Shown here: positions 1 through 26,082 of the stretch, piece by piece | Layout of the letters: every line of letters begins with the position of its first letter | Position numbering within the stretch: the first letter of the stretch is position 1 | NCBI RefSeq assembly: GCF_900099835.1 | Contig: NZ_FNKP01000004.1 | Span: 62,001 to 126,000 of the forward strand | DNA from: Paraburkholderia fungorum | GTDB lineage: Bacteria; Pseudomonadota; Gammaproteobacteria; Burkholderiales; Burkholderiaceae | Reading direction: 5' to 3' | DNA: 64,000 bases | Translations under genes and position numbers: made by a program | Notes under the pieces: generated by a model | The model's database searches: none | What the model saw: the letters and a program-made list of their open reading frames with translations, nothing else | Told to the model about the DNA's origin: nothing

Positions 1-1108
1 CCGTGTAGGTTGCCATCAACAACCGCTCTCGATTAGAGGCGACCCAGGCGAGGACCGCCTTCTGCGCCGAAATCTGATATTCGATTGTCGTTGCCGCTTG
101 CCAGATTTGTGGAGCAAGCGCTAAAGGCTGTATTCCACTTGGCACATGACGCGCCGGGACGAAAGGAATTCGCTGCGGATGTGGGGTGCCGATCACCTCC
201 GAGAGGATCCCCACTACGTTATGCAAATGAGCCGTCGTCGTAGACATGCCATTAGTCCATGCCGTATACGGAGCCGCATTCTGCATGTACGACCCGACCT
301 TGCCCTCCGCGATGAGTCGATGGTGAACGGCCATGCCCAGTTCAGCGCTCGTCGCGAGGACAAGCGGCGGAGTATAAGCGTTGTTCGGGTCGCGGAAGGG
401 GGGAACATACATCGCCCCCCCTAGAGGCCCCGTCTGATGAGGGTCATACGCAACCTGCGGAAACCACTCCCGGTACATGACTTCTGCTACGTTTCGTGTT
501 TCCGCTGTCGCCGTGAAATGATAGTCACGATTGATATCGGAACCCGCATACCGAGGCATCAACTCCGGCGTCGCAAAGCGCCATTCCACCGGCCGTTTTG
601 CGGGATCCCGCTCACGCATATACTCGCACGCAAAGTCCTCGTGACCATCCGGATTCGCATGTACCAGCAACAGCACCACCTCATCCAGAATTCTCAGGGT
701 CTCCCGATCCGTTCCTGAGGCCAAGCGCCATGCCAGTTCGAACAGGGTCTGCGTCGGGAGAATCTCGTTATGGTGAACACCGGCATCGATAAATACCACG
801 GCCTTGCCGTCGCGCGCCAACTCCGAAGCGCGACCATGATCGATATCGTAGGGTTGTGCCAGAGTGCGGGCCAGATCTCGATGTTTGTCAGCATTCACCA
901 GATTGTCCGGCGACGAGATGATCAGCATGTACTGACGTCGCCCATATCCGGTAGCCCCGATATCCACCATTTTGATGCGTGACGATTGGGTCGCCAGCAA
1001 GGTCCAATATTCTACCAATTGAGTATAGTTAGCGAGATAGTAATCTTCGCCAATCTCGTGCCCCAAGAACTCTTTGGGCGATGTAATAGAATTCATTTCC
1101 AATCTCAT
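1..1108 (-). CDS. M14-family zinc carboxypeptidase-like protein (3' end outside window)
   Basis: The reading frame is open from an ATG at 1108 to the window edge, so the C-terminus is missing; an in-frame ATG at 1096 is an alternative start. The peptidase M14 fold is suggested by a HxxE zinc motif (DAGVHHNE, residues about 109-115), an NPDGHEDF segment, an INRDY segment typical of the substrate-binding region, and a later PHQTG that could supply the third zinc ligand. There is no signal peptide, so a cytoplasmic peptidase acting on imported substrate is likely. It is the last visible gene of the minus-strand operon, 20 bp after the preceding hydrolase gene. The family removes C-terminal residues or hydrolyses amide bonds; the substrate here is unknown. 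Confidence 0.8.
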   Translation of the reverse strand, partial: MRLEMNSITSPKEFLGHEIGEDYYLANYTQLVEYWTLLATQSSRIKMVDIGATGYGRRQYMLIISSPDNLVNADKHRDLARTLAQPYDIDHGRASELARDGKAVVFIDAGVHHNEILPTQTLFELAWRLASGTDRETLRILDEVVLLLVHANPDGHEDFACEYMRERDPAKRPVEWRFATPELMPRYAGSDINRDYHFTATAETRNVAEVMYREWFPQVAYDPHQTGPLGGAMYVPPFRDPNNAYTPPLVLATSAELGMAVHHRLIAEGKVGSYMQNAAPYTAWTNGMSTTTAHLHNVVGILSEVIGTPHPQRIPFVPARHVPSGIQPLALAPQIWQAATTIEYQISAQKAVLAWVASNRERLLMATYT

Positions 1109-1128
1109 GGGAGCGGTCGGGTGTGAAT

Positions 1129-2112
1129 CTAGGAAATCAGAACGAAATAGTCGTAAGCAAGACGTGCCACATCAGCGATTATCGAGTTTCGGTAAGCCAT
1201 ATTTTCGGGTGAATCTTTAACGTACACTGCTAAAGCAACAGTGCCCCGTCCATCCGGAAGTGTCAGGAATCCGACATCTGCTGCGGCACCGAGCCCGCTG
1301 CCAGTTTTATTGGCGAACGGCACGCCCTGCGGTAGCCGGCCTTTAACACGTTCCGGACTGGTCGTCGTGCGACTCATGATGTCAAGAAGCAAATCACGCG
1401 ATGCTCTGGTTATTCCTTTTCCAGACCACAGCGCATTGAGCAATTCGATCATCGTGTACGGTGTGCATTGGTCACGCAAATCGTTGCGATAATCGGTTTT
1501 TTCGCCGTGCATCCGGTTTCGCGCGTCGATCACGTCGAAGGATGCGTTTCGCAGCGCATCGCGCTCCGAAACGTCAAATGGAAGCTCCGCAATATCGTGC
1601 AGTACACACAGTGCGTGGCGCATGGTGTACCGTGATTCGAAACCTTCGATTCCAAGCACGGTTTCGACATAGTCGGCGACAGCCTCCGCCCCTCCTGCCA
1701 CCCGGAACATCACGTCCGTCGACGTGTTGCAGCTGCGGGTGATCATCGGTTCAAGTAAGTTCATCACCGAGAGCGCGACCCCATCATGCAAAAACTCCTC
1801 ACCTAGCGGCCCCCCTGAATTCATCTCACTCGACTGGACTTCGATCCAATCGCTCAAGGCCAGCTCACCTGCATCCACAAGGGCCAGTACCTTCATCGCG
1901 ATGGCGATCTTGATGGTACTTTCGAGCGGGAAGCGGCAATCCTCATGAAGCCCCAGTCGCTCTCCGGTCTCTACATGCAACGCCGACACACCCACGCTGC
2001 CCCTAGAGTATTCGATAATCCGCTGTAACTCCGCGACCGCATTTAGTTTCGCAAGCGTGGCGGCGGGTCGGCCAGGATGAACGGGCGAAGCAGTCTTACT
2101 GTTTTCTGTCAT
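1129..2112 (-). CDS. Class A beta-lactamase-fold serine hydrolase, cytoplasmic, SCN variant
   Basis: This 327-residue protein has the serine beta-lactamase/DD-peptidase layout: SxxK as STIK at residues 65-68, an SDN-like motif changed to SCN at 127-129, and KTG at 269-271. The omega-loop Glu and Asn (ExxxN) that deacylate in true class A beta-lactamases cannot be recognised. There is no signal peptide, unlike secreted beta-lactamases. It lies 93 bp after a second gene of the same fold and 20 bp before the M14 peptidase, within a peptide-type transporter operon. I infer a cytoplasmic amidase or peptidase acting on an imported compound rather than antibiotic resistance. The family call is firm; the substrate is unknown. 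Confidence 0.8.
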   Translation of the reverse strand: MTENSKTASPVHPGRPAATLAKLNAVAELQRIIEYSRGSVGVSALHVETGERLGLHEDCRFPLESTIKIAIAMKVLALVDAGELALSDWIEVQSSEMNSGGPLGEEFLHDGVALSVMNLLEPMITRSCNTSTDVMFRVAGGAEAVADYVETVLGIEGFESRYTMRHALCVLHDIAELPFDVSERDALRNASFDVIDARNRMHGEKTDYRNDLRDQCTPYTMIELLNALWSGKGITRASRDLLLDIMSRTTTSPERVKGRLPQGVPFANKTGSGLGAAADVGFLTLPDGRGTVALAVYVKDSPENMAYRNSIIADVARLAYDYFVLIS

Positions 2113-2205
2113 AGCAACGACTTTAAATTCGGTTTAATCGACGACACCGGCTCTCCAAGAGACGAACATGAAGCGCCGGCAATAGATAGCAACCCAGTCG
2201 GCAAT

Positions 2206-3072
2206 CTAGTCGCCGAGTTCATCCCAGCAAACGCGGCACATTCGCGCCAGATGTTCCGAAGCTGCGTGCTGACCGGGCATTCCGTCCGGCATTTCAACCG
2301 GCACATCGACCGCATAAGCCGTCATGACGAAGCGTGGCTTTCCATTTCGGAACACGATGCCGGCGTCCATTTTTCCGTGCTTACCCGTACCGGTCTTGTG
2401 AGCGACTTTGGTCCCCAACGGCAGGTGAGCCGGTAGCTGTGTCCGATAAACCTGCCGGATCAGGATCTCCATAGCAAGCTGACATAGCGATTGCGAACAT
2501 CCCAGCCGTTGAGCCGCCGCATCGTCCTGGCTTCCGGCAAGTACCATCTGAAGAAGATTGCCTTGATCGATGGCACTCGTCTGAGCCACGAAATCGAAGT
2601 CGTGGTCTGCAGGCATATCTCTTGGCGGGACGAGTTCGCGAATCAATGTCGCCGACATGCCGAGCCGTTGACAATAGTTATTGATTGCATTCAGCCCTAC
2701 CGCTTCCCCGACGAGACTCGTACACGTGTTGTCGCTTGTGATGATCATCTGGACGAGCGCGTCGCGTAACGGAATAGTCAGCCCAGGCGTCATGAAATAG
2801 AAAACTCCCGACACGACGCCCTGCATCAGGCGTTCGTCGATCACCATGCGTTGGGACAAATTTAATCGCCCGGCATGTACGGCTTCAAGCGCAGCCAGCA
2901 TAAACACGATCTTGCGCGTACTTTGCGACGGTACCGGCATTTCCCCAGCGCGATGGATTTCAATATTGCTTTTCAGATCCTTGACATACCATGTCGTTGT
3001 GAAGGATTGGGCGTCACAGAGCCTATCCAGTTTTTCTTTCAGCCCGTTCATTGTCTTCATAAGGTTTTTCAT
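2206..3072 (-). CDS. Class A beta-lactamase-fold serine hydrolase, cytoplasmic, SDN type
   Basis: This 288-residue protein carries STRK at residues 51-54 (catalytic Ser and Lys), SDN at 113-115 and KTG at 226-228, the three signatures of serine beta-lactamases and penicillin-recognising enzymes. No secretion signal is present, and no clear omega-loop ExxxN is visible. Its ATG overlaps the stop of the MmgE/PrpD gene by 4 bases (ATGA), which implies translational coupling. It is the closer of the two to a canonical class A enzyme, since the paralog downstream has SCN. A role in opening an amide or lactam bond of an imported compound is inferred from the operon. Confidence 0.8.
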   Translation of the reverse strand: MKNLMKTMNGLKEKLDRLCDAQSFTTTWYVKDLKSNIEIHRAGEMPVPSQSTRKIVFMLAALEAVHAGRLNLSQRMVIDERLMQGVVSGVFYFMTPGLTIPLRDALVQMIITSDNTCTSLVGEAVGLNAINNYCQRLGMSATLIRELVPPRDMPADHDFDFVAQTSAIDQGNLLQMVLAGSQDDAAAQRLGCSQSLCQLAMEILIRQVYRTQLPAHLPLGTKVAHKTGTGKHGKMDAGIVFRNGKPRFVMTAYAVDVPVEMPDGMPGQHAASEHLARMCRVCWDELGD

Positions 3073-4493
3073 CTTGATTCGAGGGGTAACGACAGTGCCT
3101 GCTGAATGGGCCTGGCGTTCTCAAGCGCAGCAACCAACGAAAGCGCCGACTGCTGCGCAGTCATGTCCAGCGCGCGATCTGTCAACACGCGAGCTGAACG
3201 GGATTCAACGAGATTTGATACTTTCGCGGCAACCCATTCATCGTCCCACTGTGGTTGCAGCACGTGTTGAACGGCTCCCCCGTTCTCCATCAAGGTCTCG
3301 CAAACGTACTGTTTTCCGCTCACCCACGCTCGGACGGCACTTGGCTTGTTGCGGACGCTGCGTTGCGGATTTGTGCGAGCGTCTTGGGAAGGCCACGGTT
3401 GACGATGCTCCACCACTTCGATTTTTCTTCGAAATGCCGCGATACGGGGATGATCAGACAGTTCTTGCGAGCCCCACTGAGCGCCCGGCGGTATTCCGAA
3501 AGCAAGCATCGCCATGGTGTGCGGAATGCTGAATTGCCTGGCGGCGAAAGTCGCAGGAGTCTGATTGACGGCGTTTGGGGAGAGTCCGGCAAGGCCTATC
3601 TCGGCGACAATCCTTTCCGTGCGCTCAAGAGCGACTGGAAGCTGGCTCGTGAGCGCAAGCATGTTTTTCATGGGCCCAATGTTGAGTCCACAACAGGGCC
3701 AATCCTTGTAGACAATACGTCGGATACGCCAGCTCGACCCTAGCGATTCCGACAAATACTTCGGCTTAGCATGTTCGGCACAGAGGATGCGAAACAGGCC
3801 CCAATCGTCTTCCGTAAGCGATGTTAATCCCGTGGAACCTGCTGCGGCAGATACCGCCGCCATCACGCCGGCCAACGTGCACCATCCCACGTCGCAGAAC
3901 TTCGTGTTGGGCGAATTCGGCATTCTGCCCCATACACCGCCAGTGGGAATGGGCATGGATGCTCCCGCGATCGCATACGCCTCGGCGCTCGACGATGCGT
4001 CTAGCTTCAACAGTTTCGACGCCGTCGCGACAGCCGCATAGACCACCGGAGCGGACACACTCCAGATGGGCGCATATTGAGGCTTCCCTTCGATCTCCGT
4101 GAAATATGGCCCAATCGCATCCATGACGCGCGCGCCCGTCTCATAGCCAGCCGCAATCGCGGTCAACAATTCTGCGCCACTGGCACGGCTAATTGCCGCC
4201 AGCGCGAGCGCGGCAGCGACCGGCCCGACGCCAAAATGCGCACCGTTGTAGCCCTCGCTGAGATCCAATGCGTCCCCGAGGCGCGCATAACCATAGGCTC
4301 GACTACCTGGCGCACTGGCGCCCCCGAGCACAGCCACGGTGCCTGCGACAATCGGCTCCATCTCCGAAGCACGCGCAGCCACAATGCACCCCATATAGTC
4401 CAGGAACATTCGCTGGGTTTCGCTCCGCACGTCGTCGGGTATGTCTTCCAACCTGAGGGAGAGGTTGAATCTGATCAACGCCTCAACGCTCAT
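3069..4493 (-). CDS. MmgE/PrpD family protein
   Basis: The 474-residue product resembles the MmgE/PrpD superfamily (2-methylcitrate dehydratase, cis-aconitate decarboxylase, iminodisuccinate epimerase). The features seen are an N-terminal helical region with FLDYMGCIVAARAS, a GYNGAHFGVGPVAAALALA segment, and a small second domain containing YKDWPCCG. These enzymes dehydrate, decarboxylate or epimerise small polycarboxylates. It overlaps the transporter ATPase gene upstream and the serine hydrolase gene downstream by 4 bases each, so it belongs to the same pathway. The substrate cannot be deduced; epimerisation of an amino-dicarboxylate-like product is one possibility. Confidence 0.8.
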   Translation of the reverse strand: MSVEALIRFNLSLRLEDIPDDVRSETQRMFLDYMGCIVAARASEMEPIVAGTVAVLGGASAPGSRAYGYARLGDALDLSEGYNGAHFGVGPVAAALALAAISRASGAELLTAIAAGYETGARVMDAIGPYFTEIEGKPQYAPIWSVSAPVVYAAVATASKLLKLDASSSAEAYAIAGASMPIPTGGVWGRMPNSPNTKFCDVGWCTLAGVMAAVSAAAGSTGLTSLTEDDWGLFRILCAEHAKPKYLSESLGSSWRIRRIVYKDWPCCGLNIGPMKNMLALTSQLPVALERTERIVAEIGLAGLSPNAVNQTPATFAARQFSIPHTMAMLAFGIPPGAQWGSQELSDHPRIAAFRRKIEVVEHRQPWPSQDARTNPQRSVRNKPSAVRAWVSGKQYVCETLMENGGAVQHVLQPQWDDEWVAAKVSNLVESRSARVLTDRALDMTAQQSALSLVAALENARPIQQALSLPLESR

Positions 4494-5532
4494 AATGCAA
4501 TGTCATTCAGATGGCAGGCACTTCGGTGGCCTGGAGCAATCGTCTTGAGCAACGGAGCATCTTCCTTGCAACGGGCCATCGCGTGCGGACATCGCGGGTG
4601 GAAATGACACCCGCCGGGGGGAGACAATGGGCTGGGCAATTCGCCTTTCAGAAAAGAGAACGGCTTTCTGGTGGTGTCGATGCGTGGCACTTCCTCGAGG
4701 AGTGCCTGTGTGTAAGGGTGATTGGGCTTCCCGAAGACCTCCTCGGTGGGCGCCTCCTCGACGATTCTGCCAAGATACATAATGGCCACCCGATCGGAGA
4801 TGTGCTCGACCACGCCAAGATCATGGCTGATAAAAAGATACGTCAAACCGAGACTTTCCCGCAGGTCCATGAACAGATTTAGAATCTGCGCCTGGATCGA
4901 TACGTCGAGCGCCGCCACGGCTTCGTCGCAGACCAGAAACTCCGGATTGACAGCAAGCGCGCGAGCAATCCCAATTCGCTGACGCTGACCGCCGCTGAAC
5001 TGGTGTGGATAGCGGCTTTTGACGGCTGGATCGATTCCGGCTCGTCTCATCTGGTCATCCACGTAAGCAGAGTGATCGCTATCGACAAGCCCATGGATCC
5101 GCGGCGCCTCTCCGACGATATCGCCTACCGACATTCGTGGATTCAACGAGGCAAATGGGTTCTGGAATACCATTTGCACCCGCAACTTCCGTTGACGGTC
5201 TTCGAGCGCCGAGAGCGAATCGACGTCAGATCCGCGCCAGAATATGGAGCCTTCCGATGGTCGCATGATGCCGGCGACCATTCTTCCCAAGGTTGATTTG
5301 CCGCAGCCGGATTCCCCTACGAGGCCGACCACCTCACCACGTCGAACCGTCAGACTGACGTCGTTCACCGCGTAGACTTGCGGCGACAATTTCGCGGCGC
5401 CAATCCGTGCGAGTGAGCGGACCAGAAGATCGTCTCGAGCCCCGAAGCGCTTCGAAACACCTCGGAGTTCGATCATCGGTTCGACTGGGTCGGTTGGCAT
5501 CCGCGGTTCAATCGCTTCCATATCGCTCATAT

Positions 5533-5536
<4 letters not shown>
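4490..5536 (-). CDS. Dipeptide/oligopeptide-type ABC transporter ATPase, OppF/DppF-like
   Basis: This 348-residue ATPase shows Walker A GESGCGKST, the ABC signature FSGGQRQR, and a Walker B/D-loop region reading CDEAVAALDVSIQ, where most relatives have SDEPVSALD. The C-terminal oligo_HPY-type region (PLSPPGGCHFHPRCPHA) is typical of Opp/Dpp ATPases and carries Cys residues. It pairs with the adjacent OppD-like ATPase (overlap at 5533-5536) to energise the two permeases of the operon at the inner membrane. The start overlaps the upstream stop, consistent with coupled translation. Confidence 0.92.
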
Positions 5537-6515
<979 letters not shown>

Positions 6516-6519
<4 letters not shown>

Positions 6520-7460
6520 GCCAGGCTCCTGGGACTCAACACATCTCTCAGGCGGTCACCCACCAGGTTGATCGAAACGACCGTCAGAACAAGAGCAATG
6601 CCCGGATAAAAGCTGATCCAATATTGACCCGACAACATGTACTGGTAGCCATTTGCGATCAGCAGTCCAAGACTCGGTTCGGTCACGGGCACGCCCAGCC
6701 CTAAAAACGACAATGTCGCTTCAAGTGCGATGGCGCGGGCCACCTGAACGGTCGCAATCACAATGAGCGGCGGAAGAATGTTCGGGAACAGGTGACCAAA
6801 TAGAATTCGTCGTGTTGGAATGGCAAGACACTCCGCGGCTTCCACGTATTCCTTTCTGCGCTCGACTAATGTCGTGGCCCGTGCCGTTCTTGTGTACGCC
6901 GCCCACTCGACGATGATGAGCGCCAGCACTACGTTCATCACTCCTTTTCCGAGAAAAGCCAGAATCATCAGTGCGACGAGAATCGCCGGAAATGCCAGCT
7001 GAAAATCGACGATTCGCATGATGACCCCCTCAGTTCTACCGCCCACGTAAGCGGCAAACAGACCGAGCGATGCGCCGACCACTGCAGCAAACAACGCTGA
7101 CGCGACCCCGACGCCCAGCGATATTCTCAAACCGTAGAAGATAGACGACAAAATATCGCGGCCTTGTTCGTCCGATCCCAATAACATCTTCACACCGCCG
7201 CCGGAGATCGAACCGGGCGCCAATCGGCCGTCCATGATGTCGATGTGGGTGAGGTCATACGGATTCTGGGGGGACAGCACTGGCGCGAAGATGGCTATGC
7301 CAATGACCAGTACTAACACGACAAGGCTGATTACCGCGATCCATGAAGAGAAGAACTGCCTGGCCATGCGGCGCGCGGGCGTTTCCGGCTTTTGCTCGAC
7401 GACCGTCGTCGACGCGAAATCAACGACATCGACGGCCGGAGGACTCGATTGGGAGGACAT
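6516..7460 (-). CDS. ABC transporter permease, DppC/OppC type
   Basis: This 314-residue inner-membrane permease has an N-terminal transmembrane helix (about residues 38-62) preceded by the arginine-rich cytoplasmic tail common in DppC proteins. Four to five further hydrophobic helices follow. The GSDEQGRDILSSIFYGLR segment is characteristic of the DppC/OppC subfamily, and EAAECLAIPTRRILFGHLFPN is the EAA loop contacting the ATPases. It lies 5 bp after the DppB-like gene, and the pair forms the translocation pore. Confidence 0.93.
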
Positions 7461-7465
7461 GACTT

Positions 7466-8440
7466 TTAATCCTGGCTTCTGATGCGGACACGCGGGTCCA
7501 GCAATGTGTAAAGAACATCAACCAACAGATTGATACTCACGAACAGGAACGCGATCATCATCAGATAGGCCACGATGACGGGCCGATCGAGTTTGTCGAT
7601 ACTGTCGATAATCAGCTTTCCCATGCCTGGCCAAGCAAATACAGTCTCGGTGACAACGGAGAAAGCGATCAATGAGCCAAACTCCAACCCCATAACCGTG
7701 ACAACCGGAATCAACGTGTTCTTGAAAATGTGCACGAAGATGATCCGCGTCTCGGTCAGACCTTTCGCTCTTGCGAACTTCACGTATTCCATCGGCAGCA
7801 CTTCGCTCACGCCGGCTCGCGTGAGCCGCATCACGAGCGAGGTTTCGAAAAGCGCTAGAGTGCCTGCTGGAAGGACCAGATGTTTGAGACCGTCGAAGGT
7901 GAAGAGTGACCATTGCGCCCCGAGCAACGCTATTGTTTGGCCTCGACCGCTGCTCGGAAACCAGCCGAGATTAACGGCAAATACCATGATCAGAAGGAGC
8001 CCCACCCAGAATGACGGCAAGGAGAATCCGACGATACTCAGCGACATCGACGTTTTGCTGAACAGCGACTCGGGTCTAAGCCCGGCGTACAGGCCGAGTG
8101 GTACGCCAACGAGAATTGACAATATCAAGCCGCAGATCGCGAGCTCCACGGTTGCCGGCATTTTCTCCAGAATCACCTTGATGGCGGACTCCCCGTAAAC
8201 AAAGCTATTGCCCGCATTCCCGTGCACCACGCCGTGCAGAAACGATAGATACTGCCTCCACAGCGGCTGATCGAGGCCGAAGGTCTTCATGACATGGACG
8301 CGCTCTATCTGACTCGCTTCCGGACTGATCAGCATTTCGACCGGATCTCCAATCACATTAACCGCGACAAACACCACAGCTGTCATCGCGATCACGATCA
8401 GAATCGCCTGTAGCACCCGGCGGCTCAACCAAAGTGTCAT
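7466..8440 (-). CDS. ABC transporter permease, DppB/OppB type
   Basis: The 324-residue protein has the typical DppB order: an N-terminal helix (about residues 9-29), a periplasmic stretch with the GLDQPLWRQYLSFL motif, then five hydrophobic helices and an EAA-like loop (YVKFARAKGLTETRIIFVHIFKN cut short here as YVKFARAKGL). It is placed 12 bp downstream of the second binding-protein gene and 5 bp upstream of the DppC-like permease. It would form half of the membrane channel of the transporter. Confidence 0.92.
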   Translation of the reverse strand: MTLWLSRRVLQAILIVIAMTAVVFVAVNVIGDPVEMLISPEASQIERVHVMKTFGLDQPLWRQYLSFLHGVVHGNAGNSFVYGESAIKVILEKMPATVELAICGLILSILVGVPLGLYAGLRPESLFSKTSMSLSIVGFSLPSFWVGLLLIMVFAVNLGWFPSSGRGQTIALLGAQWSLFTFDGLKHLVLPAGTLALFETSLVMRLTRAGVSEVLPMEYVKFARAKGLTETRIIFVHIFKNTLIPVVTVMGLEFGSLIAFSVVTETVFAWPGMGKLIIDSIDKLDRPVIVAYLMMIAFLFVSINLLVDVLYTLLDPRVRIRSQD

Positions 8441-8452
8441 ACCATCTCCAGA

Positions 8453-10033
8453 TCAAACGGGTTTCGCAAAATAGGCACTCGAATGCCCCATCGGATTGGC
8501 CAGATAGCTGAGACGATCCTTTCGCCCGGCCCATGTCGCTTCTGTATAGAAAACCGGGATGAGTCCCACATCCGCCATCAACGCCTTCATGCCTTCGGCC
8601 AATGCGGCATTGCGGCGGGCCGTGTCCATTTCATTACCGGCACGTTTGAGCGCTTCATCGACGTGAGGATTGGAATACATCTGTCGATTCGATCCCCCTA
8701 GTCCCGCTGCCGCATCCTTGGTTTGCGCAAGGTACTGCATGGTGATTAGCGTGGACGGAGAATTGAATCCGAGGATAAAGAGCGAATACGCGCGTGCAGT
8801 CGCTTTGGTCGCGAACACGGACATCGGCGCTACCTCAACTGCGGTGGTAATGCCAATTCGGCTGAAGCCTTGCGCGATTGCCTGTGCCACGTTGGTATCG
8901 TTCGGGAAATATCCGTTCGGGCCATGCAGCGTCATGCGGAAACCATTCGGATAACCCGCCTCGGCCAAGAGGCGCTTCGCTTCCACGAGGTCCGTTTTCA
9001 GCGCCGCCATGTTGGGTGCGCGATCAGGAACGGCGGTAGAGACCATCTGATCGGCGACCGTACCCTGACCCGACATCAAACGGGTCACAATGCCGCTGCG
9101 GTCGACAGCAAGCGAAAGCGCCTGCCGGACCCTCACATCCTGCAGCGGGTTCGACTGAAGTGGTTTCCCGTCCTTGTCGAACACGAAGGGCGAGTCCTTG
9201 CGCATCGAATCGGGGAAGAGATAGATAGTCAGGAATCCCGTTGTCTCGAACAGCGCAAGTGCTTTGTCCTGCTTCAACCGATTCACGTTTTCGACCGGCA
9301 CCGTGTCGATCAGATCGACATCCCCGCTTTGCAAAGCGGCGATACGCGCCCCAGGATCGGAGATGTACTTGATGACCACGCTGTCCCAAGCCGGTTTGCC
9401 GCCGAAATATTGAAGGTTCGGGCTCAGCCGCAATTCCTGACCATTCGCATACGAGACAAACTTGTAGGGTCCCGTGCCGATCGCTGCCTTGCCCGATGTA
9501 AAGTCGGCGGTCGTAGCGCTCGCGTGAATCTTGCGAGACAGCATGGCCACCTGAGTCAGACGCCAATCGAAAATTGGGTCGACCGTGTGGAGCTTGAACC
9601 GGATCACCGTCCGGCTCACAATCTCAATCGACTTCACATTACGGGTACTGGCCGTGAAGGGCGACGAGGAGCCAACAACTTTCGGTACGCGCTCGTAACT
9701 GAACAGCACGTCTTCGGGTTCAAAGGGTGTGCCGTCGTGGAACTTGACGTCGCTGCGCAAAGTTAGCTCCCAGGTCGTGTCGTCCACAACCTTCCAGGCA
9801 GACGCCAGATTTGGCTTGACCACGCCACTCGAACTGTCGCTCAACAGAGTGCTGAAAATTTGCTGCGTCGCCTGCACGCTGATGAATGCGTCCTGGAACT
9901 GCGGGTCGAGCGACGTCGGTGGCGACGTGACGCCCATACGGAGTTCACGGGAACCCGCTGCCATTGATGGCAGTGGAAGAACATCCATCACAGCACCGGC
10001 CAGACCGATTTTTAGAAAAGAACGTCGTTGCAT
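8453..10033 (-). CDS. Family 5 extracellular solute-binding protein with Tat-like signal
   Basis: The 526-residue protein starts with MQRRSFLKIG, a twin-arginine (Tat) export motif, followed by a hydrophobic stretch ending near PSMAAGS. The mature part has the SBP_bac_5 layout (TSLDPQF near the N-terminus, WELTLRSDVKFHDGTPF, then a large peptide-binding lobe). It delivers ligand to the DppBC-like permease encoded next. A second binding protein of the same family sits 44 bp upstream, and the two probably share the transporter with different affinities. Tat export of one of the pair suggests it folds before secretion. Confidence 0.9.
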   Translation of the reverse strand: MQRRSFLKIGLAGAVMDVLPLPSMAAGSRELRMGVTSPPTSLDPQFQDAFISVQATQQIFSTLLSDSSSGVVKPNLASAWKVVDDTTWELTLRSDVKFHDGTPFEPEDVLFSYERVPKVVGSSSPFTASTRNVKSIEIVSRTVIRFKLHTVDPIFDWRLTQVAMLSRKIHASATTADFTSGKAAIGTGPYKFVSYANGQELRLSPNLQYFGGKPAWDSVVIKYISDPGARIAALQSGDVDLIDTVPVENVNRLKQDKALALFETTGFLTIYLFPDSMRKDSPFVFDKDGKPLQSNPLQDVRVRQALSLAVDRSGIVTRLMSGQGTVADQMVSTAVPDRAPNMAALKTDLVEAKRLLAEAGYPNGFRMTLHGPNGYFPNDTNVAQAIAQGFSRIGITTAVEVAPMSVFATKATARAYSLFILGFNSPSTLITMQYLAQTKDAAAGLGGSNRQMYSNPHVDEALKRAGNEMDTARRNAALAEGMKALMADVGLIPVFYTEATWAGRKDRLSYLANPMGHSSAYFAKPV

Positions 10034-10077
10034 GGGAGTTCGCCGAATCAGTGTTTTGATGTTGGAAGATTCGCGCC

Positions 10078-11664
10078 TTATTGCGCGGTGATCGCGTTCG
10101 CCAGCGTCAGCCCATCGGCGCGCGGAACATAGGCATAGCCCTTTCGGGTCACCCAGTAGTTGACGAAATTAAACAGGGGAATCACCGCGAGGTTGTCCAG
10201 CGCCACGCGGGATGCGTCCTGCAGCAACTTCTCCCGCTGCAGGGTATCGACCGTTCGCAGCGCGGTATCGACCTGCTGGTCCAGCGCCGGGTTCGAATAG
10301 CGAGACCAGTTGTACGTGCCTCGAGACTTGCCGGGATCGACAGTGCCAAGCAGGCTGCCGAGAATCGAGCCGGCTTCGAAAGAACTGTTTCCCCAGTTGT
10401 CGATATAAACAGGAACACTCTGGTTGCTTGCCAACTTGATACCGATCGACGTCGGCACAGCATTCACCTTCGTGCGTACCCCGATTCTCGACCACATCTG
10501 CGCGATGGCCTGCGCCACTTCAACGCTATAGGGAACCCGATCGTTCGTTGCAGTCAACGTCAATGAAAATCCGTCCGGATAGCCGGATTCCGCCAGAAGC
10601 TTTTTTGCCGCGACTGGATCGTATTTAGGAACACCAACATCCGACAGCGATGAAAAGACCCCCGGCGGCAAAAACTGGCCCGTCGGCTCTGCCGTGCCGA
10701 ACATGATTTTTGACGCCAATCCGGACCGGTCAATGGCGCCCGAGAGCGCCTTTCTCACGGCGAGATTGGTTAGCGGTGACGGGGTAATCCGGTTCCCGCT
10801 TGCATCCGTTACAGGTTCGGCGTCCGCGCTCGCCTGATAGAACGGCATGACGTAAGCCACGCGCAAACCTTTTGCGGAGAAAAGACGAAAACGGGAGTCG
10901 TTACGCAGGCGTTCGATGTCTTGTGCCGGAGGTGTCTCGGCAACGTCGATGTCGCCGGCAAGGATACTGGTCGTGCGTGTCGCCGCGTTTGTGACGACTT
11001 CGTAAGTCACATGTGCCCACTGTGGCTTTCCGTTCCACCAGTCGTCATTACGCACGAGACTAAGGCGTTCGTTCGTGACGTACTTTTCGAACTTGTACGG
11101 GCCCGTCCCAATCATTGCGCGGCCGGAGTTGTAGTCCGCTGTGGTCGATATTGAACCGGCCTTCTGGGAAACGATTTCGATAAAGCTCAACTGCATCGGC
11201 AAATTCGGCGTGGGCACAGAGGTAGTAATGTGCACGGTCAGGTCATCGACCGACTCCACCTTGACGATCGTATTGATCAAACCAGAAAACCCGCCCGGCG
11301 CGCCCGGAACATTTTTAACCCGATTCAGACTGAAGACCACGTCTTTGGCAGAAAAAAACGACCCATCATGCCAGTGCACTCCCTTTCTTAAATTGAATTC
11401 CCATACGGTGTCCGAGATTGATTTCCAACTCGTTGCAAGTGAGGGCATCAGCCGGCCTGTCGCGTCTCTCGAAACAAGAGGTTCGAAGATGTTCAGCGCG
11501 ACCGTGTGATTAGGCGTCGCGTTGTAGAAATGAGGATCAAGTGAGGTAATAGCAGCAGATAGCCCAATCCGGACTTCCTGCGCTTGTGCCGGCGCAGCGT
11601 AAAGCATCTGCAACCCCGCACATATGAAGGTTAGAAAAATGAGCGAACATCTTGAAATAGACAC
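10078..11664 (-). CDS. Family 5 extracellular solute-binding protein (first gene of operon)
   Basis: The 528-residue product has a Sec-type signal peptide (MSISRCSLIFLTFICAG followed by a cleavage region near APAQAQ) and the SBP_bac_5 pattern TSLDPHFYN, WEFNLRKGVHWHDGSFF. It is the first gene of the ten-gene minus-strand operon. Having two tandem binding proteins of similar length suggests duplication and divergence for related ligands. Expression would start in the gap between 11,665 and 12,057. Confidence 0.9.
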   Translation of the reverse strand: MSISRCSLIFLTFICAGLQMLYAAPAQAQEVRIGLSAAITSLDPHFYNATPNHTVALNIFEPLVSRDATGRLMPSLATSWKSISDTVWEFNLRKGVHWHDGSFFSAKDVVFSLNRVKNVPGAPGGFSGLINTIVKVESVDDLTVHITTSVPTPNLPMQLSFIEIVSQKAGSISTTADYNSGRAMIGTGPYKFEKYVTNERLSLVRNDDWWNGKPQWAHVTYEVVTNAATRTTSILAGDIDVAETPPAQDIERLRNDSRFRLFSAKGLRVAYVMPFYQASADAEPVTDASGNRITPSPLTNLAVRKALSGAIDRSGLASKIMFGTAEPTGQFLPPGVFSSLSDVGVPKYDPVAAKKLLAESGYPDGFSLTLTATNDRVPYSVEVAQAIAQMWSRIGVRTKVNAVPTSIGIKLASNQSVPVYIDNWGNSSFEAGSILGSLLGTVDPGKSRGTYNWSRYSNPALDQQVDTALRTVDTLQREKLLQDASRVALDNLAVIPLFNFVNYWVTRKGYAYVPRADGLTLANAITAQ

Positions 11665-12057
11665 TTTTTAAGTCCCCCGACGAAACGTTGAACGACGACC
11701 CTTTCATTGCGATGGGTACCGTGGAACACATCTGGATACGAAAAAAGTTTTTCACTACAAAATGACTCGAACAAGCAGCTTGGATGCTGACGATGTGTTC
11801 TTTAAACACACCATTTTTCGAACCGGCAACGAGAGGCGACGGCGAATTCAGGTCGCCGTTGGAACGATTGATTGGCTATATGGGATGCGGCCGGTCGCGC
11901 ACGCAACCGGGCCGTTGAAAACATGCTTGAACGAGTTCGCCAGTATGGAGAAATTAAACGCTTGCGACACAGCTGCGTCGCCAAAAGCGACACACTGAAA
12001 TCAACTCGATTTGATGAATTCAGTTCACGTGAATTCGCCTGCCGTGGCGCGGCAAGG
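11665..12057. promoter_or_regulatory. Upstream region of the transporter operon, with an inverted repeat
   Basis: No convincing gene lies here. It separates the aceE stop from the first binding-protein gene, both on the minus strand, so the operon promoter should be here. A perfect inverted repeat GAATTCA-N7-TGAATTC occupies 12016-12036 and could be an operator. It has no T-tract, so it does not look like a terminator. Its position 22-42 bases past the aceE stop leaves both roles possible. Confidence 0.4.
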
Positions 12058-14748
12058 TCAAATCGAAGCCATTCCTATGATGTCCGCCAGACGTTTCTTT
12101 GCCTCGATTTGCACTTCTGCTTCGCAAACTTCAGTGACGCGTAGGCTGGCGTTTACGATCGATTGCGCGTCTACCTCGAAATAGCGACGCAATTCAGCTC
12201 TTGAATCGCTACGGCCGAACCCGTCCGTACCCAACGTGATGTAGCGGCGGCCCTCCGGCACATAGCCGCGCACCAGTTCTGGCAATGCCTTGACGTAGTC
12301 GCAAGCCGCCACGATCGGACCACGTGTTCCGCGCATGTGCTTAGTGAACCAGCAGTCTTGAGTTTCACGCTTGCCGCTTCGCCATTCCCGCTCGCTGCGC
12401 ATACCGTCTCTGGCTAGCTCGACATAGCTGGTCACACTCCAGACGTCGGCGGAGATATGGTGCTTCGACTCAAGCTCTTCAGCAGCCTTCAATACCTCGC
12501 TCATGATCGCGCCGCTGCCAAAGAGTTGCACGCGTCTTTCGAACGGTCCGCCTGCACGAAAACGATACATACCTCTAACGATACCCTCTTGAGAGTCGGC
12601 CACGAAAGTCGGCTGCGGGAGGTTTTCATTAGTGACGGTGATGTAGTAAAACTCATCATGTTGCTCGGTGAGTATGCGTCGCATGCCATAGTCGACGATC
12701 ACCGCAAGCTCACCAGCAAACGATGGATCATAAGCGCGGCACGTGGGAATCGTCGATGCGAGCAGATGGCTCGATCCGTCCTGATGCTGCAATCCCTCAC
12801 CCCCGAGCGTGGTTCGGCCAGATGTCGCGCCAATCAGAAAGCCTCTGGCTCGCTGGTCCGCTGCCGCCCAGACCAGATCGCCGATCCGCTGAAAGCCAAA
12901 CATGCTGTAGTAGATATAGAACGGCAACATCGCCATACCATGGGTCGCGTAGCTGGTGCCGGCTGCCGTCCACGACGAAAGCGCGCCCGCCTCGGTGATG
13001 CCTTCCTCAAGGATCTGTCCATCGCGCTGCTCGCGATAGGAAAGTATCGACGCGTCGTCTTCCGGCTTGTACAGTTGACCGAAAGGTGCATAGATGCCCA
13101 CTTGACGGAACAGATTAGCCATTCCGAAAGTGCGCGCTTCGTCTGCGACGATCGGCACGATTCTCGGACCCACAACCGTGTCTTTCAGTAACGCGCCAAG
13201 CTGCCGCACAAACGCGGTCGTGGTGCTCATGACCTTGCCGTCCGCGTTCAGGGAAAAGGCAGCCACGCTTTCAAGGTCTGGCACTGCCAGCGATTCGGAT
13301 GAAGCACGGCGCTGCGGAAGGTGACCGCCAAGTGCTTCTCGACGATCGAGCATGTAGCGCAGTTCATCGCTGTCCGTTGGGAGCCGGTAGAAGCACGCAT
13401 CCGAGACTTGCGCATCAGTCAACGGAAGATTGAATCGGTCCCTGAAGGCGAGTAGATCGTCTTTGTCCAACTTTTTCTGTTGATGTGTCGTCATGCGGCC
13501 TTGGGCTATAGCACCCATGCCGTAACCCTTCATCGTTTTGGCCAGAATGACCGACGGCTTGCCATTCCGGACCGTCGCAGCAGCAAACGCCGCATGAATC
13601 TTGACGGGGTCGTGACCGCCACGTCTAAGCGACGCAATATCGTCATCTGAGAGTGAATCGACCAGCGCTTTGAGCTCCGGCGAACGGCTGAAGAAAGTCT
13701 CGCGATTGAAGGCGCCGTCGTTTGCAGACAGCGTCTGGAATTCACCATCTACCGTGCTCGCGAAAATGCCCTCAAGCACACGGTCATGATCCCTTGCGAA
13801 CAACGCGTCCCACTCCGATCCCCATAGACACTTAAAGACATTCCAGCCAGCCCCGGCGAACAACGCTTCAAGTTCGTCGATGACGCGTCCGTTCCCCCGC
13901 ACCGGGCCATCCAACCTCTGCAGATTGCAATTGATCACAAATACGCAATTGTCCAGCTTCTCTCGGGCCGCGAGCGTCAACGCACAGGTTGACTCGGGCT
14001 CGTCCATCTCGCCATCACCGAAGAATCCCCATACCCGCCGCTCACCTGCCTGTTTCAGTCCGCGATTCTCCAGATAGCGGATAAACCGCGCCTGATAGAT
14101 GGCGTTGAGCGGACCCAGACCCATCGAGCCCGTCGGAAACTGCCAGAAATCAGGCATCAGATAGGGATGCGGATAAGAGCTTAGGCCACGGACACCCTTG
14201 CTGCTAGCGACGATCTCCTGTCGATAGTGGCCTAAAGACTCCTCAGAGATTCTGCCCTCCAGAAACGCACGCGCGTACACACCAGGCGCCGAATGCGCCT
14301 GAAAGAAAACAAGGTCTCCTCCTTCTGGCGAATCGGGGCCACGAAAAAAGTGCTCGTAGCCGACTTCGAAGAGGTCGGCTGCCGACGCATAGCTCGCGAT
14401 ATGCCCACCGAGCTCCCCTTGTGCCCGATTTGCCCTCACGACCATGGCAAGTGCATTCCAGCGCGATATGGCGGAAATGCGTGCCTCAAGCGCAAGATTT
14501 CCGGGATACGCCGGCTGCTCTTCCACGCCAACCGTATTGATGTAGGGCGATACCAAAGGAGGCCGCCAGCCAACTTTCCGCGTACGCGCATGGGCAAGCA
14601 ATGCGTCGAGCAACGTTCGCGCTCGGGCCTTGCCATCTTCTTTTCCCCATGCATGTAGCACGCCGTCAAGTGCATCGCACCACTCCTTAAGTTCGCCCGG
14701 ATCCGGGTCGGGCGTCGTTGCTTCGGGTGCGTCATCCTGTCTTGCCAT
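12058..14748 (-). CDS. aceE: Pyruvate dehydrogenase E1 component, homodimeric type
   Basis: With the start at ATG 14748 the protein has 896 residues, close to E. coli AceE (887). That ATG has GGGAG seven bases upstream; an open frame continues to 14814 but without a better site. The thiamine-diphosphate motif GDGEMDEPES...NCNLQRLDGP is present, and the overall pattern is that of homodimeric E1, which decarboxylates a 2-oxo acid and acetylates the E2 lipoyl domain. No E2 (aceF) or E3 (lpd) gene follows, so it must borrow them from elsewhere. It lies 72 bp downstream of acdS on the same strand. Since ACC deaminase makes 2-oxobutyrate, a substrate E1 enzymes can accept, this paralog may serve that product (inference). 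Confidence 0.93.
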   Translation of the reverse strand: MARQDDAPEATTPDPDPGELKEWCDALDGVLHAWGKEDGKARARTLLDALLAHARTRKVGWRPPLVSPYINTVGVEEQPAYPGNLALEARISAISRWNALAMVVRANRAQGELGGHIASYASAADLFEVGYEHFFRGPDSPEGGDLVFFQAHSAPGVYARAFLEGRISEESLGHYRQEIVASSKGVRGLSSYPHPYLMPDFWQFPTGSMGLGPLNAIYQARFIRYLENRGLKQAGERRVWGFFGDGEMDEPESTCALTLAAREKLDNCVFVINCNLQRLDGPVRGNGRVIDELEALFAGAGWNVFKCLWGSEWDALFARDHDRVLEGIFASTVDGEFQTLSANDGAFNRETFFSRSPELKALVDSLSDDDIASLRRGGHDPVKIHAAFAAATVRNGKPSVILAKTMKGYGMGAIAQGRMTTHQQKKLDKDDLLAFRDRFNLPLTDAQVSDACFYRLPTDSDELRYMLDRREALGGHLPQRRASSESLAVPDLESVAAFSLNADGKVMSTTTAFVRQLGALLKDTVVGPRIVPIVADEARTFGMANLFRQVGIYAPFGQLYKPEDDASILSYREQRDGQILEEGITEAGALSSWTAAGTSYATHGMAMLPFYIYYSMFGFQRIGDLVWAAADQRARGFLIGATSGRTTLGGEGLQHQDGSSHLLASTIPTCRAYDPSFAGELAVIVDYGMRRILTEQHDEFYYITVTNENLPQPTFVADSQEGIVRGMYRFRAGGPFERRVQLFGSGAIMSEVLKAAEELESKHHISADVWSVTSYVELARDGMRSEREWRSGKRETQDCWFTKHMRGTRGPIVAACDYVKALPELVRGYVPEGRRYITLGTDGFGRSDSRAELRRYFEVDAQSIVNASLRVTEVCEAEVQIEAKKRLADIIGMASI

Positions 14749-14820
14749 CGTCGTGCTCCCAGATTCGTGGTCTGTGTCCATCGCGCCCAATTGCCGTCGG
14801 CGATCGGGCGCCACAGGTTA

Positions 14821-15837
14821 TCAACCGTCCTTGAACAGGAAGCTGTATGCGTTCAGTGCAGGCGCGCCGCCGAGGTGCGCATACAAAACCTTCGAGCCTT
14901 CCGGAAACTCGCCTAGACGAACCATATCGACCATGCCCTGCATCGACTTGCCTTCGTATACCGGGTCGGTCATCATGCCCTCCAGTCTGGCGCTCAGCCT
15001 GATGGCCTCGAGCGTTTGCTCTGACGGAAGCCCGTATTCGGGACCGCCGTATCGAGTGTCCAGTACCACGTCTGAATCGTGGATGGGTCGACCGAGTTGA
15101 ACCAGATCAGCGGTATGACGCGCGATCCGAAGGATCTGATCGCGGGTCTGTTCGGGCTTGGCGGAAGCGTCAATGCCTATGACTTTGTCGGCCCGGCCAT
15201 CCGCCGCGAAGCCGACAACCATGCCCGCCTGGGTGCTGCCGGTCACGGAACAGACCACGATGTAGTCGAACTTGAAGCCCAGTTCCGCCTCCTGCGCCCG
15301 GACCTCCTCCGCAAAGCCAACAAATCCTAGTCCACCCAGTCGATGCTCCGAACATCCCGCGGGAATCGGATAAGGCTTGCCACCCGCGTCCCGAACACTC
15401 TGCATAGCCTGTTCCCAGCTTGGCCGGATGCCGATGTCGAAGCCATCGCTGACGAGACGTACATCAGCGCCGAGCATACGTGACATCTGAATATTGCCGA
15501 CGCGGTCGTAGACAGCGTCCGAGTAATTAACCCAGTTCTCCTGCACCAGCACGCACTTCAGCCCAAGATGGGCCGCGACGGCCGCCACCTGTCTGGTTTG
15601 ATTCGACTGGATTCCTCCGATCGAAACGAGCGTATCGGCGCCTTGATCCAGCGCGTCAGGAATGATGTATTCCAGCTTTCGCGTCTTGTTGCCTCCAAAA
15701 GCGAGACCGCTGTTGCAGTCTTCACGCTTGGCATAAAGGTGCACTTTGCCACCTAGGGCTTCACTAAGCCTGGGCAGCGCATGAATAGGTGTGTGCCCAA
15801 AGGTAAGTTTATGGCGGGGGAATTGACTGAGGTTCAC
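14821..15837 (-). CDS. acdS: 1-aminocyclopropane-1-carboxylate deaminase
   Basis: This 338-residue PLP enzyme opens the ring of ACC, the plant ethylene precursor, giving 2-oxobutyrate and ammonia. It has the residues known for genuine ACC deaminase at the reference positions: Lys51 (PLP lysine, [10 protein letters not shown]), Ser78, Tyr268, Tyr294, Glu295 (DPVYEG) and Leu322. The Glu295/Leu322 pair separates it from D-cysteine desulfhydrases. Translation starts at GTG 15837 with GGAG seven bases upstream. The Lrp-type regulator is divergent 188 bp away. The gene points to a plant-associated lifestyle. Confidence 0.96.
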
Positions 15838-16025
15838 GTACGCTCTCCGATCTGATGGGGCACTGGAAAAAGACGCTATATGTTCGCGTCATTGCACTTA
15901 CAAATCGTATAGAAAAGAGGACGAAACGTGGTTGCGAAGAATAATGGATAGATAGACTATCGTTTAGTTAAAGTCGCAGTTTTGCTGATCACAATATCTT
16001 TCCTTCTCTCATAGGCGAAATAAAA
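15838..16025. promoter_or_regulatory. acdS-acdR divergent promoter region
   Basis: The 188-bp gap between the divergent acdS and acdR genes must hold both promoters and the binding site of the regulator. An exact palindrome GATAG-A-CTATC lies at 15951-15961, inside an AT-richer stretch with repeated GATA words. In known systems the Lrp-like regulator binds between the two genes and activates acdS with ACC or leucine as effector. The exact box cannot be fixed by eye. Confidence 0.45.
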
Positions 16026-16520
16026 TTGCGTTCGAACAAACAGAAGCCCGTTTTGCCGGGCTCCGAACTAGACCGGATCGATAAGGCCATCCTGCGTGCG
16101 CTTCAGAAAGACGCGTCCATCTCCAACGTCGCACTGGCGGCCAAGGTTGCACTGAGCGCACCCGCCTGCTTACGCCGCGTCGAACGATTGAAGAGCCTTG
16201 GCTTGATTCGCGGAGTCGTTGCGTTGCTGGACGCGGCGGCGCTTGAAGTTGGCATGCTGGTCATCATCGGTGTCGTGCTGGACCGCTCGACACCGGAGTC
16301 TTTCTCCGATTTCGAGAAAGCGGCGCAGAAAATTTCAGGGTGCATGGAGTGTCACGTCGTGACTGGAGAGTTCGACTATTTCATGATGCTTCGCACCCGG
16401 GATAACGACAGCTTCAATCGTCTCCACGCTGAACAGCTTCTGTATTTGCCAGGCGTCCGTCAGATTCGAACGTTTATGGTGCTAAAGCAGGTCTTCTCTA
16501 CGACACAGCTGACTATCTAG
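16026..16520 (+). CDS. acdR: Lrp/AsnC family regulator of ACC deaminase
   Basis: The 164-residue protein has an N-terminal winged helix (LDRIDKAILRALQKDASISN, then LSAPACLRRVERLKSLGLI) and a C-terminal RAM/AsnC ligand domain (GCMECHVVTGEFDYFMMLR). No ATG is available: the start is a TTG at 16026 with an AGGCGA element about eight bases upstream. Its divergent position next to acdS matches AcdR of other ACC-deaminase bacteria, where it activates acdS. Confidence 0.9.
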   Translation: MRSNKQKPVLPGSELDRIDKAILRALQKDASISNVALAAKVALSAPACLRRVERLKSLGLIRGVVALLDAAALEVGMLVIIGVVLDRSTPESFSDFEKAAQKISGCMECHVVTGEFDYFMMLRTRDNDSFNRLHAEQLLYLPGVRQIRTFMVLKQVFSTTQLTI

Positions 16521-17008: not shown

Positions 17009-18469
17009 TCATGTGACTCCCATACACATATACTTGATCACGAGATAGTCGTCGATTCCGTAATGGGAGCCCTCGCGTCCGAGCCCCGATTGCTTAACGC
17101 CGCCGAATGGCGCGACTTCATTCGAGATCAGCCCGGTGTTGATGCCGACCATTCCATATTCGAGCGCTTCGGCGACCCGCCACACGCGGCTGATATCGCG
17201 GCTATAGAAATACGAGGCGAGACCGAATTCGGTATTGTTGGCCAGCCTCACGACCTCTTCATCCGATGAGAAGCGGAACAGCGGCGCAAGCGGCCCGAAG
17301 GTCTCATCACGCGCGACCTGCATGTCCGAGGTGACGTCCAGAAGCACGGTGGGTTCGAAGAATCCGTGTCCTAACGCGTGACGCTTGCCGCCGGCGACAA
17401 CACGCGCGCCTTTCGCCAGCGCATCTTCAATATGCGACTCGACCTTGCGTACCGCCGCTTCGTTGATCAATGGCCCTTGCGTGACGCCTGCATCGGTGCC
17501 CGCGCCCACCTTCAGTTGTTCGACCGCAACGCGCAACTTGTCGGCGAACGCCTCATAGACCTTCTCGTGCACATAGAAGCGATTCGTGCAGACGCAGGTC
17601 TGACCGCTATTGCGATACTTCGACGCAATCGCACCGGCCACGGCGGCGTCCAGATCGGCATCGTCGAACACGATGAACGGCGCATTGCCACCGAGTTCGA
17701 GCGACACCTTCTTGACTGTCGGCGCGCACTGCGCCATCAGCAGGCGGCCCACCGGCGTCGAACCGGTGAACGACAGCTTGCGCACCACCGGATTACCGGT
17801 CAGCTCGGCACCGATCGCTTTCGGCTCGCCGGTCACGACGTTGAACACGCCGCGCGGCACGCCCGCGCGTTCGGCGAGCACCGCCAGCGCCAATGCGGAC
17901 AGCGGCGTGGCCTCGGCTGGTTTAACGACGATCGGGCAGCCAGCCGCCAACGCCGGGCCGACCTTACGGGTAATCATCGCGGCAGGGAAGTTCCACGGCG
18001 TGATCGCTGCGCAAACACCCACGGGCTCTTTCACGACGACGATCCGTTTGTCGCTGGCCGGCGTGGGAATGGTGTCGCCATAAACCCGCTTGCCTTCTTC
18101 CGCGAACCATTCCAGGAACGATGCCGCGTACTGGATTTCGCCCTTGGCTTCCGCGAGCGGCTTGCCTTGTTCGGTCGTGAGGATCGTCGCCAGATCGTCG
18201 GCGTTTTCCAGCATCAGGTCGTGCCATTTGCGCAGGACCGCGGCGCGTTGCTTCGCCGTGGTCGCTCGCCATGCGGGCCATGCCGCGTTCGCCGCGTCGA
18301 TCGCGTGACGCGTTTCGGCCGCGCCCATCAGCGGCACCGTGGCAATTGTTTCGCCGGTAGCGGGATTGTTGACCGCGAAGGTTGCGCGTGCGTCGGCGGC
18401 TCGCCACTCGCCCGCGATGTACGCACGTGTCTGGAGCAGGGTCGGGTCTTTTAAAACTTGCGTGGTCAT
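17009..18469 (-). CDS. gabD: NAD(P)-dependent succinate-semialdehyde dehydrogenase
   Basis: The 486-residue aldehyde dehydrogenase begins at MTTQVLKDPTLLQ (18469); the frame is open 60 bases further upstream without a good ribosome site. It has the ALDH motifs ITPWNFPAAM, the FTGSTPVG cofactor loop, catalytic Glu in ELGGNAPFIVF and catalytic Cys in NSGQTCVC. It oxidises succinate semialdehyde to succinate, the last step of GABA degradation. It follows gabT on the same strand by about 70 bp, so the two form an operon feeding the TCA cycle. Confidence 0.93.
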   Translation of the reverse strand: MTTQVLKDPTLLQTRAYIAGEWRAADARATFAVNNPATGETIATVPLMGAAETRHAIDAANAAWPAWRATTAKQRAAVLRKWHDLMLENADDLATILTTEQGKPLAEAKGEIQYAASFLEWFAEEGKRVYGDTIPTPASDKRIVVVKEPVGVCAAITPWNFPAAMITRKVGPALAAGCPIVVKPAEATPLSALALAVLAERAGVPRGVFNVVTGEPKAIGAELTGNPVVRKLSFTGSTPVGRLLMAQCAPTVKKVSLELGGNAPFIVFDDADLDAAVAGAIASKYRNSGQTCVCTNRFYVHEKVYEAFADKLRVAVEQLKVGAGTDAGVTQGPLINEAAVRKVESHIEDALAKGARVVAGGKRHALGHGFFEPTVLLDVTSDMQVARDETFGPLAPLFRFSSDEEVVRLANNTEFGLASYFYSRDISRVWRVAEALEYGMVGINTGLISNEVAPFGGVKQSGLGREGSHYGIDDYLVIKYMCMGVT

Positions 18470-18537
18470 TGGATCAAGGTCTTTGTGGTCGTCGAATCGG
18501 AGCGCGGCCTGGAGCCGCACGGCTTCCACTCAGGAAA

Positions 18538-25955: not shown

Positions 25956-26082
25956 AGGTTTTTACGCGGTTGCAGAATGGAATGTCCGCTTTCGAGAAAC
26001 GCCACCGTCGCAAGTGGGTCCATAGTGTGTGAAAACGCATTGATCGCCTAAACTGAATCAACGCACTGAGACCGGCTGACTC

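Follow-up and report, generated by a model that had tools for sequence, protein, structure and literature searches.

What do serine hydrolases of the beta-lactamase fold do when they are encoded, apparently without export signals, behind a peptide importer? The question is raised by an operon at the left end of a 64,000-nucleotide stretch of the Paraburkholderia fungorum genome (contig NZ_FNKP01000004.1, positions 62,001 to 126,000; here "the window"). Its genes encode an ATP-binding cassette (ABC) importer with two binding proteins, together with four enzymes, two of which, SH_A and SH_B, are such hydrolases. Genes related to SH_A were found to recur beside importer genes, and we propose that the operon is probably a catabolic module that imports a peptide-like or N-acylated amino-carboxylate and then hydrolyzes it.

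Operon layout and importer

The operon lies on contig 4 of an 8.58-Mb genome in four contigs. From position 11664 leftward, it comprises the following genes:

10078..11664, minus strand: SBP1, an Opp/Dpp-type periplasmic binding protein (SBP_bac_5 by Pfam; export-signal-like N-terminus)
8453..10033, minus strand: SBP2, a second binding protein (SBP_bac_5 by Pfam; export-signal-like N-terminus)
7466..8440, minus strand: DppB-type permease (Pfam; similarity to SH_A-linked copies)
6516..7460, minus strand: DppC-type permease (Pfam)
5533..6519, minus strand: DppD-type ATPase (Pfam)
4490..5536, minus strand: DppF-type ATPase (Pfam)
3069..4493, minus strand: MmgE/PrpD-family enzyme (Pfam; relatives beside Dpp operons)
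2206..3072, minus strand: SH_A, a predicted cytoplasmic class-A-like serine hydrolase, PBP-A-like and without a conserved omega-loop Glu, of a family tied to importers (Pfam, motifs, model)
1129..2112, minus strand: SH_B, a predicted cytoplasmic class-A-like serine hydrolase with an omega-loop insertion of about 40 residues (Pfam, motifs, alignment)
1..1108 in the window (C4:60364-63108 in the genome), minus strand: M14 zinc carboxypeptidase-like protein, 914 amino acids overall (Pfam, alignment)

Nine genes are complete between positions 1129 and 11664. The tenth, encoding the M14 protein, is cut by the window's left edge, a correction to an earlier reading of this DNA (the original prediction) that had otherwise placed the ten genes rightly. 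Many 4-base overlaps had been described, and these were present at four of the nine junctions (DppC/DppD, DppD/DppF, DppF/MmgE, and MmgE/SH_A); the remaining five are gaps of 44, 12, 5, 93, and 20 bases. The genes are presumably cotranscribed. Pfam agreed with the earlier assignment of two binding proteins, a full ABC transporter, and four enzymes, matching SBP_bac_5 (twice), BPD_transp_1 (twice), ABC_tran with oligo_HPY (twice), MmgE/PrpD, Beta-lactamase2 (PF13354, twice), and Peptidase_M14. Export signals were judged by mean N-terminal hydropathy and inspection by eye, a coarse test in which SBP1 and SBP2 scored positive and SH_A, SH_B, the MmgE/PrpD enzyme, and the M14 protein scored negative, as had been foreseen for both hydrolases.

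With two SBP_bac_5 proteins, two permeases, and two oligo_HPY ATPases, the operon encodes a complete Dpp/Opp-type importer, sharing its full component set with Dpp/Opp/Nik-type peptide and opine importers. Among the NCBIfam matches listed for the importer, none reached its cut-off, and therefore no known substrate could be assigned. Binding-protein similarity also failed to indicate a substrate, as the best solved relatives were mixed (uncharacterized, heme-binding, dipeptide-binding, YliB, and AgaA). The DppB protein is 53-56% identical to SH_A-linked copies from Oxalobacteraceae and 65-70% identical to copies at three loci designated L048, L087, and L096.

SH_A and SH_B have class A motifs without a glutamate at the 166 position

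The catalytic motifs described earlier were confirmed in both hydrolases: S51TRK54, S113DN115, and K226TG228 in SH_A, and S65TIK68, S127CN129, and K269TG271 in SH_B, where C replaces D in the second motif. In an alignment of the window's SH_A with 43 others taken from the 80 loci described below, the motifs were invariant except at residue 227 (T in 19, G in 20, and S in 5). Positions 138-170 of these 44 sequences contained no conserved omega-loop Glu; the only conserved acids were D156 (43 D, 1 E) and D169 (44/44), and E146 of the window's copy is Phe in 28 of the 44, with an acid there in two overall. The omega loop of SH_B keeps the Arg and has Thr two residues later, where class A enzymes have Glu166, and carries an insertion of some 40 residues. 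These omega-loop comparisons were made by sequence alignment rather than by model coordinates, and they bear out the claim that neither hydrolase has a recognizable deacylation Glu. The numbering and role of Glu166 used here are consistent with the available text of PMC12777564.

The SH_A model (mean predicted local distance difference test [pLDDT], 94.4) has a class A fold, and its first Foldseek match was the penicillin-binding protein (PBP) PBP-A, with ties to a Sphaerobacter beta-lactamase and LRA-5. PBP-A (Tll2115 of Thermosynechococcus; PDB 2j7v/2j8y) itself lacks Glu166, and SH_A fits the PBP-A type by predicted fold and missing Glu. The two proteins share 24-26% identity, the likeness being one to a model of SH_A, and SH_A differs in lacking an export signal and in its placement in importer operons. 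LRA-5 was among the best structural matches of both the SH_A and SH_B models, at 18-28% identity; we know of no importer context for it. It originates from an Alaskan soil metagenome (PDB 8eo5) and, according to the available text of PMC12777564, combines the class A fold and catalytic motifs with the absence of Glu166; SH_B differs from it in the omega-loop insertion. The SH_B model was built on 12 mostly distant sequences and is poor in that insertion, with pLDDT < 50 for much of residues 161-212.

Against the class A beta-lactamase family NF033103, SH_B scored 189.8 bits and SH_A 65.1 bits, a family-level similarity in which both fall under the 200-bit cut-off. With no Glu at the 166 position, no export signal, and scores below the family cut-off, neither protein appears, by the tests run, to be a class A beta-lactamase, and neither resembles the standard exported enzyme that the original prediction had set against its own reading. 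The class A fold with SxxK, S[DC]N, and KTG motifs, and the SH_B score beside its cut-off, could be taken to indicate detoxification, in which an imported antimetabolite (a peptide-linked beta-lactam or a competitors' lactam toxin) is trapped or opened by SH_A and SH_B. We consider this very unlikely: a toxin would hardly be expected to have its own importer with two binding proteins, neither enzyme has Glu at the Glu166 position, and the partner enzymes are degradative.

The missing omega-loop Glu would also suit SH_A as an acyl-trapping sensor or chaperone for the importer substrate rather than a turnover enzyme. This role seems improbable to us; PBP-type peptidases turn over natural substrates without Glu166, and the catalytic motifs of SH_A are kept in all 44 sequences apart from residue 227. 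In its favor, wild-type LRA-5, also without Glu166, has a beta-lactamase activity termed biologically insignificant in the available text of PMC12777564.

SH_A genes are linked to importer genes

A profile of eight relatives retrieved 113 SH_A relatives from the genome collection, and the best 80 were kept; the single genome-contig scan required two short peptide patterns. Record titles include Rhizobium, Sinorhizobium, Agrobacterium, Herbaspirillum, Janthinobacterium, and Pseudomonas syringae and viridiflava, and further Stella, Neoroseomonas, Rokubacteriota, Methylomirabilota, and Chloroflexi. Within 3 kb of SH_A and on its strand, 67 of the 80 loci had a gene for a family-5 binding protein or a Dpp-type importer component, and seven of nine clusters formed at 70% identity showed this linkage, with one of them (L102, a single locus) counted on a 32% ATPase match alone. 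Of 138 control points placed 8.5 kb from SH_A on either flank, 25 had an importer-type gene; these points share loci with SH_A and are not independent. None of the 80 SH_A proteins reached a mean N-terminal hydropathy of 2.0, and three reached 1.6.

Co-occurrence of all ten families, which the original prediction had put forward for checking, was not conserved. Searching the 80 SH_A loci by tblastn (E <= 1e-8) gave no match to SH_B or M14; therefore, the conserved unit is not the ten-gene set but an importer and SH_A core, with exchangeable amide- or peptide-cleaving partners. SH_A was found in none of 397 other genomes drawn at the level of the family Burkholderiaceae (E <= 1e-20; best 5-6 candidates per genome scored) and in none of 368 other genomes drawn from the class (E <= 1e-12; few candidates per genome scored). 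A draw of 397 others from that family gave no SH_B either (E <= 1e-30; best 5-6 candidates per genome scored), and in a phylum draw SH_B had relatives in 4 of 397 other genomes (E <= 1e-25; few candidates per genome scored), all of other families and at 42, 37, 32, and 34% identity. In 12 genomes behind SH_A loci, with few candidates per genome scored, weak partial SH_B matches were found in two.

Partner enzymes

Genes in unannotated loci were labeled by similarity to reference proteins. Across the 80 SH_A loci, the partners were M20 amidohydrolase (54), MmgE/PrpD (30), PGA_cap (5), FGase (4), and S15 (4); the one M20 protein tested passes TIGR01891 (262 bits; cut-off, 154). The mainly rhizobial cluster (54 of 80 loci) has a single row of genes for DppB, DppC, a fused ATPase, SH_A, one binding protein, and M20, and a LysR-type gene is nearby. 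Four Oxalobacteraceae loci (L024, L026, L027, and L028) have the importer arranged as in the window, with DppBCDF 53-60% identical; FGase and SH_A come next, and three of these loci then have a PGA_cap protein. At L027, a chemoreceptor gene separates FGase from SH_A. At two Pseudomonas loci, a DcuC-type carrier takes the place of the importer, together with S15 peptidase, SH_A, and PGA_cap. Within about 11 kb at L048, relatives of SBP1 (43%) and SH_A (46%) share a strand, opposite to that of DppBCDF (65-68%). At L096, a second importer cluster, whose DppB is 65% identical to the window's and which includes a gamma-glutamyltranspeptidase gene, lies about 5 kb past SH_A.

PGA_cap proteins adjoin SH_A at L026 (7960-9372) and L033 (10863-12254). 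The L026 protein, the one tested, scored 248 bits against the model for the lasso-peptide epimerase MslH (cut-off, 700), a resemblance suggesting that some SH_A modules may include a peptide epimerase.

The window's MmgE/PrpD enzyme scored 100.2 and 35.6 bits for the Pfam N and C domains (cut-off, 32.1 each), which it has in common with cis-aconitate decarboxylase, iminodisuccinate (IDS) epimerase, and 2-methylcitrate dehydratase; no NCBIfam model matched it at E 0.001. All seven relatives aligned keep H86, and in one of them this position falls in an HPG motif. In a weak match to IRG1 (E 0.0025), H86 lies two residues off the catalytic H102 of bsIRG1. According to the available text of PMC7347537, the key base histidine in this region is H102 in bsIRG1 and H99 in IDS epimerase, and H86, although offset from H102 in the direct alignment, is a likely candidate for their equivalent. 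Relatives were found in 15 plasmid records, and six loci were viewed: the closest, at 35-37% identity (tblastn), stood beside Dpp-type operons at all four loci (L014, L015, L120, and L121), and those at 25-27% at neither of two. This subfamily is therefore linked to Dpp importers even without SH_A. The rhizobial MmgE/PrpD proteins adjoining SH_A belong to a different subfamily (21% identity, one aligned), and at the 30 SH_A loci with such a gene it lies on the opposite strand.

SH_B and the M14 protein belong to families whose other sampled members look exported. All four SH_B relatives from the phylum draw have signal-like N-termini, the fourth less clearly and depending on the chosen start, and the window's copy has none. 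No hidden upstream start with a signal was seen for SH_B, an in-frame stop lying 8 codons before its start. The window shows the first 369 codons of the M14 gene, and 1,637 bases extend beyond the left edge. Ten M14 relatives were found on plasmids; the seven examined all start with a signal-like stretch, which the window's copy lacks, and no hidden upstream start with a signal was seen (in-frame stop 22 codons before the start). Alignment with seven relatives showed HxxE and the later His and Glu to be kept, presumably corresponding to the HxxE, distal His, and catalytic Glu of M14 zinc carboxypeptidases. The simplest reading is that SH_B and M14 were exported enzymes that may have been recruited, and kept inside, on joining the importer operon.

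One M14 relative, in Novosphingobium (L021, 12172-20536), is grouped with amidohydrolase, MFS carrier, carbon-nitrogen hydrolase, creatininase, and RraA genes, forming another amide-catabolism-like cluster. Just beyond the window's left edge, a gene that by eye resembles a porin gene (L004, 9118-10266) is convergent with the M14 gene, and in Janthinobacterium (L024) a Pfam porin gene likewise stands ahead of the SH_A operon.

Murein-peptide peptidases occur among the M14 families, and the first Foldseek match of SH_A to PBP-A and the MslH-like PGA_cap partner likewise lend themselves to a recycling of cell-wall or D-amino-acid peptides. Murein-type peptides would then be imported, with SH_A acting as a cytoplasmic DD- or D-specific carboxypeptidase and M14 as a carboxypeptidase. 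We judge this unlikely: no muropeptide enzyme was recognized among the operon's Pfam and NCBIfam matches, MppA (3o9p, 4toz) ranked below several other solved binding proteins for both SBP1 and SBP2, and the patchy distribution would better suit a specialized nutrient.

Proposed function

We return to the catabolic import-then-hydrolyze module, which we consider the probable function of the operon. The two binding proteins and the single DppBCDF-type ABC importer would take up an intact peptide-like or N-acylated amino-carboxylate; SH_A, as a putative PBP-A-like serine acyl-transfer hydrolase, would cut an amide bond in the cytoplasm; SH_B and the M14 carboxypeptidase would complete cleavage; and the MmgE/PrpD enzyme may isomerize, epimerize, or eliminate on the carboxylate product. 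We infer the direction (uptake for growth), the bond cleaved, and the order of steps. The N-acyl or peptide-like substrate class is proposed mainly because the M20, FGase, S15, and M14 families cleave amide or peptide bonds, and the substrate or product likely bears a carboxylate because of the MmgE/PrpD family membership. The "lactam-bearing" substrate of the original prediction is a guess. From its import-and-hydrolysis pathway, the coupling of import to cytoplasmic hydrolysis is supported by the SH_A-importer linkage and the amide- or peptide-cleaving neighbors, and the conserved gene set falls. The operon would work like known peptide and opine import-and-catabolism operons.

Several observations weigh against this reading. 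Two M14 relatives that look exported scored just 1.60 and 1.66, which shows how coarse the hydropathy test is. No importer gene lies within 3 kb at 13 of the 80 SH_A loci (8 of 11 in a Rokubacteria-type cluster, both Neoroseomonas, L068, and both Pseudomonas), some flanks being cut by contig ends. The 54 loci of the mainly rhizobial cluster are a single cluster at 70% identity, and the exact ten-gene set was seen here only. Without a visible deacylating residue, SH_A might also be slow or noncatalytic.

A broader proposal, which we offer tentatively and hold to be possible rather than probable, is that SH_A founds an undescribed family of cytoplasmic serine amidases with a penicillin-binding fold. 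These would stand behind peptide importers, use a deacylating base other than Glu166, and form a fixed core with a second amidase (M20, FGase, M14, or S15) swapped between lineages. Most of what is known of the beta-lactamase/PBP fold concerns the cell envelope and antibiotic resistance, and to our knowledge no importer-linked cytoplasmic branch of it has been described. A literature search of limited extent found no paper joining MmgE, a serine hydrolase, and a dipeptide operon, nor a rhizobial counterpart. With a large cytoplasmic branch serving nutrient import, the fold would gain a part in metabolism and a class of natural substrates. Such a branch also suggests that "class A beta-lactamase-related serine hydrolase", as an annotation in rhizobia, may not denote a resistance gene. 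The window's importer operon, in addition, contains two enzymes whose types otherwise look exported but which lack the signals.

Neighboring ACC deaminase region

Upstream of the operon and on the same strand lie genes for 1-aminocyclopropane-1-carboxylate (ACC) deaminase (AcdS, 14821-15837) and an AceE paralogue (12058-14814) that ends 393 bp before SBP1. The operon might accordingly import malonyl-, gamma-glutamyl-, or jasmonoyl-ACC, conjugates that plants make (available text of PMC5827301), and free ACC, which AcdS would convert to 2-oxobutyrate for the AceE paralogue. In Sinorhizobium saheli (L043), AcdS and SH_A are separated by about 4 kb. This is the sole one of the 80 SH_A loci with AcdS, however; no importer operon was present at the three same-genus AcdS-AceE loci viewed (19 kb each), and AcdS and SH_A are > 400 kb apart in the four plasmid records common to both sets of matches listed. 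We consider a link to ACC very unlikely.

A consensus scan of 11400-12300 found no promoter or terminator before SBP1. At 12058-16520 in the window, ACC deaminase and the second AceE-type pyruvate dehydrogenase E1 gene are 6 bases apart on the same strand, with an Lrp-type gene on the opposite strand. At the three same-genus loci, AcdS, two Lrp-type genes, and an AceE paralogue are likewise clustered. The SH_A-M20 operon of S. saheli is followed directly, on its downstream side, by genes for an Lrp-type protein and an ACC deaminase (69% identical; L043, 14343-15971). By eye, genes at 17009-21478 of the window, beside ACC deaminase, are presumably succinate-semialdehyde-dehydrogenase-like, 4-aminobutyrate-aminotransferase-like, and GabR-like. 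Transposase-like pieces, also identified by eye, at 23416-23943, 26626-27495, and 28875-29612 suggest that 23416-29612 is a rearranged region.

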